A stretch of DNA of 64,000 nt from Haloterrigena salifodinae. GTDB lineage: Archaea; Halobacteriota; Halobacteria; Halobacteriales; Natrialbaceae. Under the pieces are notes generated by a model. It was not told where the DNA came from. It did not search any database and saw only the letters and a list, made by a program, of their open reading frames with translations. How positions within the stretch are numbered: the stretch's first letter is position 1; every line of letters starts with the position of its first letter. Below are positions 5,599 to 9,221 of the stretch, piece by piece. The stretch lies in contig NZ_RQWN01000002.1 of assembly GCF_003977755.1 (NCBI RefSeq), positions 248,001 through 312,000 of the forward strand. The letters run 5' to 3'. A program made the translations under genes and the position numbers.

Positions 5599-6924
5599 AT
5601 GTCCGACGAGATTAGTTCAACTGAGTTAAACAGGCGAAGTGTTCTAAAAACGACCGGTGCGATCGGTGCGGCCGGGCTCGGACTCTCGCTCGGTACCGGT
5701 TCCGTCGCCGCCGTCGAACCTGGCGACGCGAGCGAGTGGACGGCGGAACACGCGTCGAATATCGAACGCACGGACGCGACCACTGCACCGGTAATCGACG
5801 ACGGAGCGGAGCCGATTTCGGACGACTACTGGATCTGGGACACGTGGCCGCTCCGACATCGCGACGGTTCGATCGCGAAGATCGACGGCTGGCAGATCGT
5901 CTTCTCTCTCACGGCGTCGAAAGACCTCGTGCCTGGCGCTCGCCACAACGAGGCGACCATCCGCTATTTCTATTCCCGGAACGGCCACAGTTGGCAGGAA
6001 GGGGGTACGGCCTTCGAGAACCCGCTCGGCCATCACCAGTGGGCCGGCTCTGCGATGTACGACGAGAGCGAGGACCAGATCTACCACTTCTATACGGCCA
6101 CCAGCCCGGAGCCGGAGTTCCGACAGCGACTCGCACTCGCCAAGGGGGCCTCGTTCGAAACGGGGCCGCGCGGGGTCGAACTGACCGGTGCGCAAGAGCA
6201 CACCATCATCGGTGCGGCCGACGGCGAGCTTTACCAGACGCTGGAACAATCCCGGGAGCAAGGCATCGTCTACGCGTTCCGTGACCCGTGGTACTTCGAG
6301 CATCCCGAGACCGGCGAGGATTTCGTCGTGTTCGAGGGGAACACGCCCACAGGAGGCGATAGCCCGGATGATCCGCAAAGCTACAACGGGAACGTTGGCG
6401 TAATGCGAGCGACCAACGACGAACTCACCGAGTGGGAGCTCCTCCCGCCGAACCTCGAGGCGATCGAGGTCAACCAGCAACTGGAGCGACCACACTATGT
6501 GTTCAACGACGGGAAGTGGTACCTGTTCGTCCTCAGCCACGAGTTCACGTTCGCGCCCGGCCTCCAGGGTCCCGACGCGCTGTACGGGTTCGTGAGCGAT
6601 TCGCTCTACGGTGACTACGAACCGCTCAACGGCAGCGGTCTCGTCGTCGCGAACCCCGAGTCGGCGCCCTTCCAAGCGTACTCGTGGCTGGCGATGCCCC
6701 ACGGGAACGACGTGCTGGTCGAAAGCTTCGAGAACTTCCGCGGGCTCGACGACACGTCGCGTGGCGAGATCAGCCTCGACGAGGTCGGCCACCTCCCCCC
6801 GGAGGAACAGAAGGACCTGTTCGGCGGCACGCTCGCGCCGAGCCTGAAGGTGCAACTCCAGGGTAGCGAGACGCGCGTCGTGAACGAACTCAAGGACGGT
6901 CACTTCCTCCCCTCGGGTAACTAA
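5599..6924 (+). CDS. Tat-exported levansucrase/inulosucrase-type fructosyltransferase (GH68)
   Basis: A 441-residue secreted enzyme that splits sucrose and transfers fructose to a growing fructan or to water. A Tat signal (RRSVLKTTGAIGAAGLGLSL) occupies about residues 12-38. GH68 landmarks are all present: WIWDTWPL with the likely nucleophile Asp81, WQIVFSLTA, QWAGSA (about 148-152), FRDPW with the likely transition-state stabiliser Asp229, and LERPHY with the likely acid/base Glu296 followed by Arg, then GKWYLF. The upstream 130 bases are very AT rich (ATATAATTAAATT and TTTTTATTATT near 5520-5570), unlike the genome average. Together with the neighbouring tRNA-linked scar this hints at acquisition by transfer. 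Fructan type (levan or inulin) cannot be told from sequence alone. Confidence 0.9.
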   Translation: MSDEISSTELNRRSVLKTTGAIGAAGLGLSLGTGSVAAVEPGDASEWTAEHASNIERTDATTAPVIDDGAEPISDDYWIWDTWPLRHRDGSIAKIDGWQIVFSLTASKDLVPGARHNEATIRYFYSRNGHSWQEGGTAFENPLGHHQWAGSAMYDESEDQIYHFYTATSPEPEFRQRLALAKGASFETGPRGVELTGAQEHTIIGAADGELYQTLEQSREQGIVYAFRDPWYFEHPETGEDFVVFEGNTPTGGDSPDDPQSYNGNVGVMRATNDELTEWELLPPNLEAIEVNQQLERPHYVFNDGKWYLFVLSHEFTFAPGLQGPDALYGFVSDSLYGDYEPLNGSGLVVANPESAPFQAYSWLAMPHGNDVLVESFENFRGLDDTSRGEISLDEVGHLPPEEQKDLFGGTLAPSLKVQLQGSETRVVNELKDGHFLPSGN

Positions 6925-7321
6925 CGACCCAGGGACCCCCGATCGTCGTCAAGTCGGCGATGCCGCCCTCGCGTTGCAGAATTGAATCGCGTGTTGAAAG
7001 GTATCCACTGCTTCGGTCACGGGGTTCGTTATTCGCCGTCTCGGTACACTACTGCGCCACGCTTCGCTCCCCGTGTTGCGGTGTGGGAGAAGTGGGCCAG
7101 CGCAGATTCGAAATGATATCAGGGTCATGTTTTCTCACCAACGTCATCTCTCTATATCGACTTTTAGCGGGTACAGCCAGTTGGTCGGCCGGATCCGGGC
7201 GAGAGGGAATCGCGTGATCGGCATCGTCAGACCTCTAATATCTTACAGCTATATCTGAAATTTATTCGTATATATTATTTCGCCATTATATTTATATACC
7301 TATTTACATAATCTTCGATCG
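6925..7321. other. Intergenic region with a partial tRNA-Pro copy and an AT-rich promoter zone
   Basis: Of the 397 bases, positions 7083-7112 are a near-identical copy of the tRNA-Pro 3' end (listed separately). Positions 7235-7320 are strongly AT rich and lead straight into the secreted-protein gene at 7322, so they probably hold its promoter. No convincing open frame is present. Confidence 0.55.
7083..7112 (-). repeat. Partial copy of tRNA-Pro 3' end (att-like direct repeat)
   Basis: Thirty bases match 8227-8256 with two mismatches (positions 7084 and 7099). They lie in the same orientation as the tRNA on the minus strand. The copied part covers the acceptor 3' strand, the T-arm up to its TTCGAA loop and ten bases of downstream trailer. 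That is exactly the block usually duplicated when an element integrates into the 3' end of a tRNA gene. The two copies bracket about 1.14 kb holding one secreted-protein gene and no integrase. Confidence 0.7.
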
Positions 7322-8026
7322 ATGTCTGGTAAAAAACTCACCGGCAGGCGGACCGTCCTGAAAACGATCCCCGCGACGATCGCTGGTGTCGGAGTCGTTG
7401 GTGCCATCTCGGGGAGTGCCCAGGCTGACGATAACATCACCACGCTCGGCCAGAACGACGATCAACTCGGCGATAACGCGTACATCGAACTCAGCGTCTC
7501 GGGCCCCTCGTCGACCTCCGTACAGACCAACACCATGGGTATCGCCTGGGCGATGAACCACGACTACGGAATCTACGGGCACTTCAAGAACACCACCCTC
7601 GAGTTCGACATCAAGGAATCGTGGAACCCGGCCGATAGCACGATCGACTGGGTCGAGGGCTACTCCCAGGGGACGGGCGGAATCACGGCGGAACACGTCG
7701 ATTACGCCCTCGACACGCTGTGGGCCGCGTCGCCGATTCCCACACCGAGCCCGTTCGACGTCACGCGAGATTCAGGCCTCGACATCGACCGTCCGGGGAG
7801 CAGTTTCACTCACGACCTCGGCGGCTGGGACGACAAGATCTCGGAAGACGCGACGGGCGGTGCACATTTCAACGTCTCGCTCGGGACGGACGGATCACTG
7901 GAGGACGGCCTCTACAGCTTCGAAGCGACGCTGTCGACCGACGTCTACCGCCAGTCCGGCTTCTCGAGCGGCAAGGTCGGCGAACTCGAGGCGAAAACGT
8001 CCTGCGCGCTCGTCGTAGACACGTAA
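7322..8026 (+). CDS. Tat-exported protein of unknown function
   Basis: A 234-residue protein. MSGKKLTGRRTVLKTIPATIAGVG is a twin-arginine signal peptide with a likely cleavage after SGSAQA. The mature protein is rich in Ser, Thr, Gly and Asp and looks like an all-beta secreted fold (YIELSVSGPSSTSVQT, FKNTTLEFDIKESWNPAD, FEATLSTDVYRQSGF). I recognise no enzyme motif. It is the only gene between the tRNA-Pro gene and the partial copy of its 3' end, so it is probably cargo of a decayed integrated element. A role in contact with the neighbouring exported levansucrase is possible but has no direct support. Confidence 0.72.
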   Translation: MSGKKLTGRRTVLKTIPATIAGVGVVGAISGSAQADDNITTLGQNDDQLGDNAYIELSVSGPSSTSVQTNTMGIAWAMNHDYGIYGHFKNTTLEFDIKESWNPADSTIDWVEGYSQGTGGITAEHVDYALDTLWAASPIPTPSPFDVTRDSGLDIDRPGSSFTHDLGGWDDKISEDATGGAHFNVSLGTDGSLEDGLYSFEATLSTDVYRQSGFSSGKVGELEAKTSCALVVDT

Positions 8027-8236
8027 GCCGATCACTTGCCGAGCCATCCCGTCTATCCAGCAATACTCTCCCTCGAGTGAGGCCGTCCGTTCAGGCTCCT
8101 CACTCACTTCTGACTGACGGCCAATCGTCCTTCTTCGGACCCGCATTGCGCCGACACCGACAGCCGTTGCTCAGGGTGATTCTCCATGCATTACAGACCG
8201 CTTGCTGTCGCTCGAGGTTGTGAAATGCGGGAGAAG

Positions 8237-8309
8237 TGGGCCGGCGCAGATTCGAACTGCGGTTACGGCCACCCGAAGGCCGAAGGATACCAAGCTACCC
8301 CACCGGCCC
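8237..8309 (-). tRNA. tRNA-Pro (anticodon CGG)
   Basis: Read on the minus strand, the 73 nt fold as a full cloverleaf: acceptor GGGCCGG/CCGGCCC with discriminator A; anticodon stem CGGCC/GGCCG with loop TTCGGGT, giving CGG for codon CCG; and T-arm CGCAG-TTCGAAT-CTGCG. The variable loop is short (TAAC). CCA is not encoded, which is usual in haloarchaea. No intron is seen. Its 3' end is duplicated at 7083-7112. Confidence 0.95.
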
Positions 8310-8411: not shown

Positions 8412-9011
8412 TTAGAACCGCTCGTAGCCCTCGGTGTCCAGATAGTGGTGCGCGACGGTGATCGCCTGATCGGCGTGCAACAGCTCCGGACCCAGCCGCA
8501 GGCGCCGATCGACGGCGTCCTCGAGCACTTGTTCCTCCGCGTCGGTGAAGTCCCGGTGGTCTGACAGCACGAACACGGGGTCCTCGAGGCCGTCGACGCC
8601 GACATCGACCACAGCGTCGCCGTCCTCGTGTAGCTGCACCACGGTCCCGTCGGCGACTTCCGCGAGCGTTTCCTCGAACCCGCGCCGGTACACTTCGATG
8701 CCGGGACTCGGCTCGGCCGGGAGGGCGCCGATGGCCTCGTCGCGGTGCTCGAGGGCGGTCCGCACCAGCGCCGCGGTGCTTCGCTCGTCGGGATTGAGCC
8801 GGCGGAGTTCGCTCCCGTCGAAGGTGATCGTGAGCTCGTCCTGGACGACGAGGTGCGTCCGGACGTCCTCGCGGATCCCGTGGGAGGTGACGAACGAGGC
8901 GGTGATCGATCGACAGAGCGCGTCGAGGCGGCCGGCCCCGCCCGCGAGGTCGTCCAGCGAGAAGTCGGGGTCGGTCGGGACGTCGTGGCCGATGCAGACG
9001 AACTGGCGCAT
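8412..9011 (-). CDS. trmY: tRNA (pseudouridine(54)-N1)-methyltransferase
   Basis: A 199-residue SPOUT-class methyltransferase that turns pseudouridine 54 in the tRNA T-loop into N1-methylpseudouridine, using S-adenosylmethionine. The family start MRQFVCIGHDVPTDPDFSLDDL and the segment SHGIREDVRTHLVVQDELTI are diagnostic. The C-terminal half has the knot region (VFVLSDHRDFTDAEEQVLE). The frame is open upstream, but the ATG at 9011 gives the standard start. Its substrate is made by Pus10, whose gene lies about 2.5 kb away on the other strand. Confidence 0.95.
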   Translation of the reverse strand: MRQFVCIGHDVPTDPDFSLDDLAGGAGRLDALCRSITASFVTSHGIREDVRTHLVVQDELTITFDGSELRRLNPDERSTAALVRTALEHRDEAIGALPAEPSPGIEVYRRGFEETLAEVADGTVVQLHEDGDAVVDVGVDGLEDPVFVLSDHRDFTDAEEQVLEDAVDRRLRLGPELLHADQAITVAHHYLDTEGYERF

Positions 9012-9221
9012 ACCGGTACGCGGCGGGCCGCGGGGATAGCCGCCACGGTTCGCCGCGACCGGTCGCCGTCGACCGCTCGTTTCGGATCGAGAGCACAGCC
9101 GTCGCATCTGTAGCCTCCGAATACCGACGATCCACGCCGCCGTCGTGCGGTGTCACTCCCGTCGTAACACTGCATAGGCATGGCCAACCGTTTCCCTCTT
9201 CTCGGGAGAGCTATGGTACAT

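Follow-up and report, generated by a model that had tools for sequence, protein, structure and literature searches.

Copies of tRNA 3' ends behind haloarchaeal tRNA genes: a gene-bearing case at tRNA-Pro(CGG) and a probable form of recurrent tRNA-end insertion

How does the end of a tRNA gene come to be present twice, in the same orientation, on either side of a single protein coding gene? In the window, by which I mean the whole stretch of 64,000 nucleotides that was analysed (Haloterrigena salifodinae, contig NZ_RQWN01000002.1, positions 248,001 to 312,000), positions 7083-7112 and 8227-8256 are identical at 28 of 30 places in direct orientation, with a spacing of 1144, as read from the sequence. 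A search with the 28-mer, allowing up to three mismatches, returns the places at 7083 and 8227 as the sole matches in the window, where shuffled sequences give an expectation of 0.00, and a 20-mer of the tRNA-Pro end, at the same tolerance, matches only these two places genome-wide. With zero matches expected and no third genomic site, a chance repeat was rejected. The copy gives no match to any family annotation. It covers the 3' block of the tRNA and its trailer, as the original prediction had it, that is tRNA positions 54-73 and ten trailer bases, and its inner edge consequently lies in the T-loop. ARAGORN and Rfam also bear out the geometry that had been taken for an att-like scar of site-specific integration, with the intact tRNA on one side and the copy on the other (Table 1). 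The tRNA-Pro(CGG) gene is present in all 34 good genomes of relatives. In large scans RF00005 misses this gene in the window and finds it only when a short stretch is searched, which means that such scans undercount tRNA-Pro(CGG).

Table 1. Features around the tRNA-Pro(CGG) gene, with positions counted from the first letter of the window.
Feature	Position	Strand	Evidence
GH68 (levansucrase/invertase) gene with Tat signal, right flank	5599..6924	+	PF02435 1.1e-89, PF10518 weak
Ancestral tRNA trailer, now behind the copy	7024..7082	-	aligns with the tRNA trailer of G002
Displaced copy (X) of the tRNA-Pro 3' end	7083..7112	-	tRNA positions 54-73 at 7093-7112, 10 nt of trailer at 7083-7092
Gene-bearing segment in place of the usual X'-linker	7113..8179	no strand	G001 alignment stops at 8207, resumes exactly at 7112
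234-aa putative Tat-exported protein (RR motif), orphan family	7322..8026	+	ORF
tRNA trailer, folds into the unit's hairpin 1	8180..8235	-	fold z-score -3.2
Intact tRNA-Pro(CGG) gene, discriminator base 8237	8236..8309	-	ARAGORN; Rfam RF00005 48.7 bits at 8237-8309
Methyltrn_RNA_2 gene, left flank common to relatives	8412..9107	-	PF04013 7.3e-56; flank alignments

The segment between tRNA and copy (1.07 kb) carries one gene, its boundary at 8179 having been placed by eye against other genomes, and its GC content is low (43%) at the 7100-7300 end. As predicted, it holds a single Tat-like ORF and no integrase, and 7113-8179 is devoid of family matches. The encoded protein has the N-terminal motif GRRTVLK, judged Tat-like by eye, matches no family in Pfam, NCBIfam, PHROG or PADLOC, and yields an AlphaFold model too poor for use (mean pLDDT 43). 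Homologues were detected by tblastn in two of the 124 other genomes of the family (G076, 61% identity; G041, 29% identity), which makes three of 125 with the window; no tRNA is nearby within the 3.6-kb loci of these two homologues, and the gene was not found in plasmids or viral contigs.

G001, of the same genus, matches the window through the tRNA and the first 34 nt past it, leaves the next 1.09 kb unmatched, and resumes homology exactly at TTCGAATC of the window's copy, from where it continues through the GH68 gene at 95% identity. G003 shows the same stop-and-resume pattern; the right flank with the GH68 gene is common to both genomes (94-95% identical), and the gene-bearing segment is absent from both. 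Short units occupy the place of the insert in these two genomes, and the final copy in each of them is the orthologue of the one at 7083. The latter is also orthologous to the real tRNA end in G002, of the same genus too, where the tRNA end and trailer align to the window's copy and the trailer behind it (89 columns, 79.8%). The tRNA-Pro of G002 represents the empty site. As homology in G001 and G003 resumes at the copy, and given the site in G002, the copy is the old tRNA end, displaced by an insert that restored the tRNA. DNA was inserted at the T-loop/acceptor 3' side of tRNA-Pro(CGG), leaving the old 3' end behind as the copy, and the tRNA stayed intact because the insert brought its own matching end. 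In G001, a second unit is present between the tRNA and the unit that this genome has in common with G003, and the comparison of the two genomes indicates a precise gain of a unit beside the tRNA. The folded trailer of the window (hairpin 1) resembles that of G005, whose locus (L005) matches until about 62 nt past the tRNA.

In other genera, islands of 20-37 kb lie between tRNA-Pro(CGG) and a copy, with PF00589 integrases in those of 20 kb (G030) and 25 kb (G085); at tRNA-Pro, integrases occur only in such larger islands. Both an empty site and a larger island with an integrase at the same tRNA, which the original prediction had proposed to look for in relatives, thus exist. From these islands one could argue that a larger integrative element entered tRNA-Pro and that deletions left a 1.1-kb remnant with one gene, the palindromic units being unrelated neighbours, and the sporadic occurrence of the Tat-like gene would agree with this. 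I consider this unlikely, as the orthologous place holds units in G001 and G003 and no remnant of an island, the window retains hairpin 1 and has its junction exactly at the T-loop of the copy, and further single-gene intervals, of 0.8-1.2 kb, are present at other tRNAs. As a sufficient explanation, a lone decayed island was ranked lower after surveys of the tRNA genes.

In these surveys, the last 28 nt of each tRNA were sought in its own flanks, up to 300 bp away, in four Natrialbaceae genomes and in outgroups. Downstream copies were found for 24 of the 46 tRNAs in G000 (52%), 18 of 34 in G001 (53%), 12 of 34 in G003 (35%) and 16 of 52 in G021 (31%), and upstream copies number 0-2 per genome; mismatched combinations of tRNA and flank give 1.5-3% at the same threshold in G000 and G001. 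No own-end copies were found for the 31 tRNAs of G033, which belongs to another haloarchaeal family, or for 32 tRNAs in non-halophilic members of the phylum. The first copies are mostly located 71-145 bp from the tRNA, and arrays contain up to five copies (tRNA-Phe of G021). With so many tRNA genes of relatives followed by a copy of their own end (roughly a third to half), the idea of a singular scar of one integration finds no support, whereas the att-like reading keeps its insertion geometry, its empty site and its islands. Copies scattered without linkage to elements, which had been named as an observation that would speak against it, were not seen, since each copy keeps to the tRNA from which it derives and lies on its 3' side. 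In G021, two dense tRNA clusters on different contigs (G021:C1:6995-11080 and G021:C2:586079-588480) have matching scores and look like the tRNA arrays carried by viruses or plasmids; the few downstream copies in these clusters may be cross-matches between clustered tRNAs.

A unit is about 100-145 bp long and consists, outward from the tRNA, of a T-rich trailer with hairpin 1, an element X', a hairpin linker and the direct copy X, where X' repeats the T-loop and a portion of the T-stem as their reverse complement. In the window, the copy has no such inverted partner, X' being lost in this gene-bearing case. One linker type, type A, was sought by exact pattern in 84,980 species genomes. A tandem G-A hairpin (hairpin 1) occurs in 33% of type-A gaps against 1.7% of shuffled ones, with 32 different stems in 40 cases, and the units fold with a mean z of -4.7, compared with -0.75 in the flanks of tRNAs that lack units. 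Across 51 type-A sequences, 86.5% of the cells pair, 14 of the 25 pairs in X'-X and the inner hairpin vary at both partners, and the covariation score reaches 0.239; shuffles score 0.116, and slid controls no higher than 0.092. The sequence of X' follows that of its own tRNA more closely than those of other tRNAs, and in cases of disagreement between X and the tRNA, X' retains the tRNA version (17 vs. 3 cases). Behind tRNA-Arg, comparison of G000 with G001 reveals an exchange of linker A to B with the flanks kept. In a mixed set of loci with ascertainment bias, the tRNA-proximal copy of an array is the one closer to the tRNA by 26 to 1; this polarity was set aside, as nearly all unbiased loci are ties.

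The stable, conserved and covarying fold, and the way in which X' follows the tRNA where X differs, could indicate that the units are regulatory or processing RNAs in which X' pairs with the T-arm of the tRNA or with X, the copies being kept for their function. The RtT repeats of Escherichia coli have the same layout and are filed by Rfam as Cis-reg. However, close relatives differ by units that have been gained, lost or swapped, roughly half of the tRNAs as well as entire genomes lack them, and in one locus (L116, see below) they stand behind a protein gene, all of which makes this function a very improbable reason for their existence. A known RNA family for the units was rejected, as there is no Rfam match.

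In G000, the same insertion of about 59 bp is located behind tRNA-Asn and behind its downstream copy (L031, L234), and G001 has neither of the two, which points to gene conversion between copies. Conceivably, no recombinase is required at all, with copies arising and becoming homogenised through replication slippage, through template switching at palindromes and through gene conversion, and the gene having been acquired by illegitimate recombination; besides the shared insertion, the match of X' to its target would fit, and palindromes favour template switching. I nevertheless regard this as quite unlikely, as identical linker types behind 17 tRNA classes in many genera need movement between loci, the units are strictly on one side of the tRNA gene, and the junctions in the T-loop are exact.

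The type-A unit was found in at least 120 stretches, and among the matches listed every informative title is that of a haloarchaeon, with many genera represented. The majority of distinct type-A units (142 of 157) lie 35-332 bp behind a tRNA, comprising 17 amino-acid classes across the class Halobacteria; most of the other 15 either adjoin the edge of a contig or follow a tRNA 3' copy that stands alone, as expected if an island moved the array away. Copies of tRNA tails are a class-wide habit in haloarchaea, of which the window is one case. Downstream of its tRNA-Pro, the empty site, the locus of G002 (L011) has a truncated type-A unit (GCAGATTCGAATCAGGGAGGACTC...) that no copy closes. Searches of viral contigs, plasmids and phages for the type-A unit gave no match, which leaves the insertion model without a vehicle. 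The sole site found away from a tRNA is in Natronorubrum texcoconense (L116:950-1300, minus strand), where three tandem type-A units follow a protein coding ORF, with no Rfam match at the site. This ORF matches an OB-fold domain with a score under the Pfam cut-off, adjoins a thiolase-like ORF by inspection, and ends with GGTTCGAACCGGTCTGA, a T-loop-like sequence; the last copy has only 15 nt (GGTTCGAACCGGTCT) in common with the others and then diverges. The presence of units at a protein gene speaks for a T-loop-like core as the target, and against a dependence on tRNA function.

Comparison of these sequences shows insertion at the tRNA 3' end with restoration of the tRNA, a junction in the T-loop, gain of units, and exchange of linkers with the flanks kept. 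With modest confidence, I favour recurrent site-specific insertion behind tRNAs, with crossover in the T-loop by a putative recombinase in trans, as the probable explanation. On this reading the window site belongs to a class-wide family of palindromic units that insert behind tRNAs and stack in tandem, and its gene-bearing segment, flanked by hairpin 1 and X, takes the place of the X' and linker of other genomes. A tyrosine recombinase like those that place the larger islands at tRNA-Pro may make the crossover in trans, the folded X'-linker-X hairpin may be the site that is recognised, and X' would come to match the target either upon insertion or later, with gene conversion or palindrome correction as possible further processes. 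Against this model, none of the small units is linked to a recombinase, and a plain integrase model fails to explain why X' tracks the host tRNA, or how a linker is exchanged inside a unit. The phenomenon is real and in part explained, and constitutes a new form of tRNA-end insertion. A literature search, with most subscription papers outside its reach, found no earlier description of such units in haloarchaea.

In layout, the units resemble RtT (RF00391). At tyrT of E. coli MG1655 (L324, 1285600-1287700), the terminal 19 nt of tRNA-Tyr recur as direct copies at +159, +337 and +515, each with an inverted copy of the tRNA end ahead of it, at +59, +237 and +415, and the haloarchaeal units also consist of tandem direct copies that each follow an inverted one. 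The number of RtT places ranges from 1 to 10 per E. coli genome. However, the haloarchaeal units are shorter, occur behind the tRNAs of most amino acids in a genome, and can have other genes between the copies; the RF00391 model gives no match at E<=1 in eight unit loci or in the window, with four matches in the E. coli positive control. The old puzzle of the tyrT repeat is thereby tied to a broad archaeal family. REP/BIME palindromes, which are mobilised by Y1 transposases, are likewise small intergenic hairpins with variable stems, whereas the haloarchaeal units are strictly behind tRNA genes and contain the tRNA end in both direct and inverted orientation. With the integrative elements and proviruses that target tRNA 3' ends by means of tyrosine recombinases (PMC8371274, PMC3119063), the units have in common the restored tRNA, the 3' copy, the empty site and the att region within the T-loop/acceptor portion. 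They differ in being gene-free at about 100-145 bp, or in carrying one gene without an integrase, and in marking a large share of the tRNA genes (roughly a third to half) at once, in tandem stacks. A review of archaeal recombinases (PMC8371274) and a study of Haloquadratum (PMC3119063) describe islands with tRNA copies and no such units. Partial tRNA copies near haloarchaeal tRNA genes do not on their own count as evidence for a genomic island.

Integron cassettes with their folded attC sites show some resemblance, and no more than that, in the single ORFans without integrase between tandem repeats, the long imperfect hairpin by the junction and the conserved unpaired bases, whereas the haloarchaeal repeats are tRNA ends that track each host tRNA, and their hairpin includes sequence derived from the target. 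As a tentative and rather doubtful extension of the insertion model, Halobacteria might possess an integron-like system in which most tRNA T-loop ends serve as attachment sites, the small units are empty cassettes, and single ORFans such as the Tat-like gene are loaded cassettes in arrays bounded by tRNA ends, again with a putative recombinase in trans; RtT in E. coli would be the bacterial relic of a like process. One odd repeat has led to a class-wide and testable phenomenon, in which a third to half of tRNA genes bear repeated insertion marks, as counted in the surveyed genomes that have units, and to a possible route for single genes into archaeal chromosomes. At tRNA-Ser in G001, a single gene of 187 aa lies behind the tRNA and before a unit, and is present in one of 125 genomes of the family. 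A 168-aa gene with a bacterial PH domain is located between two tRNA-Val copies in G001 and G003, one of only a handful of such cases, and has close relatives in two of 125 family genomes. In G001 (L259), a stretch of 1.18 kb encoding a membrane-like protein of 197 aa lies between tRNA-Glu and a full duplicate of this tRNA, which is in turn followed by a unit.
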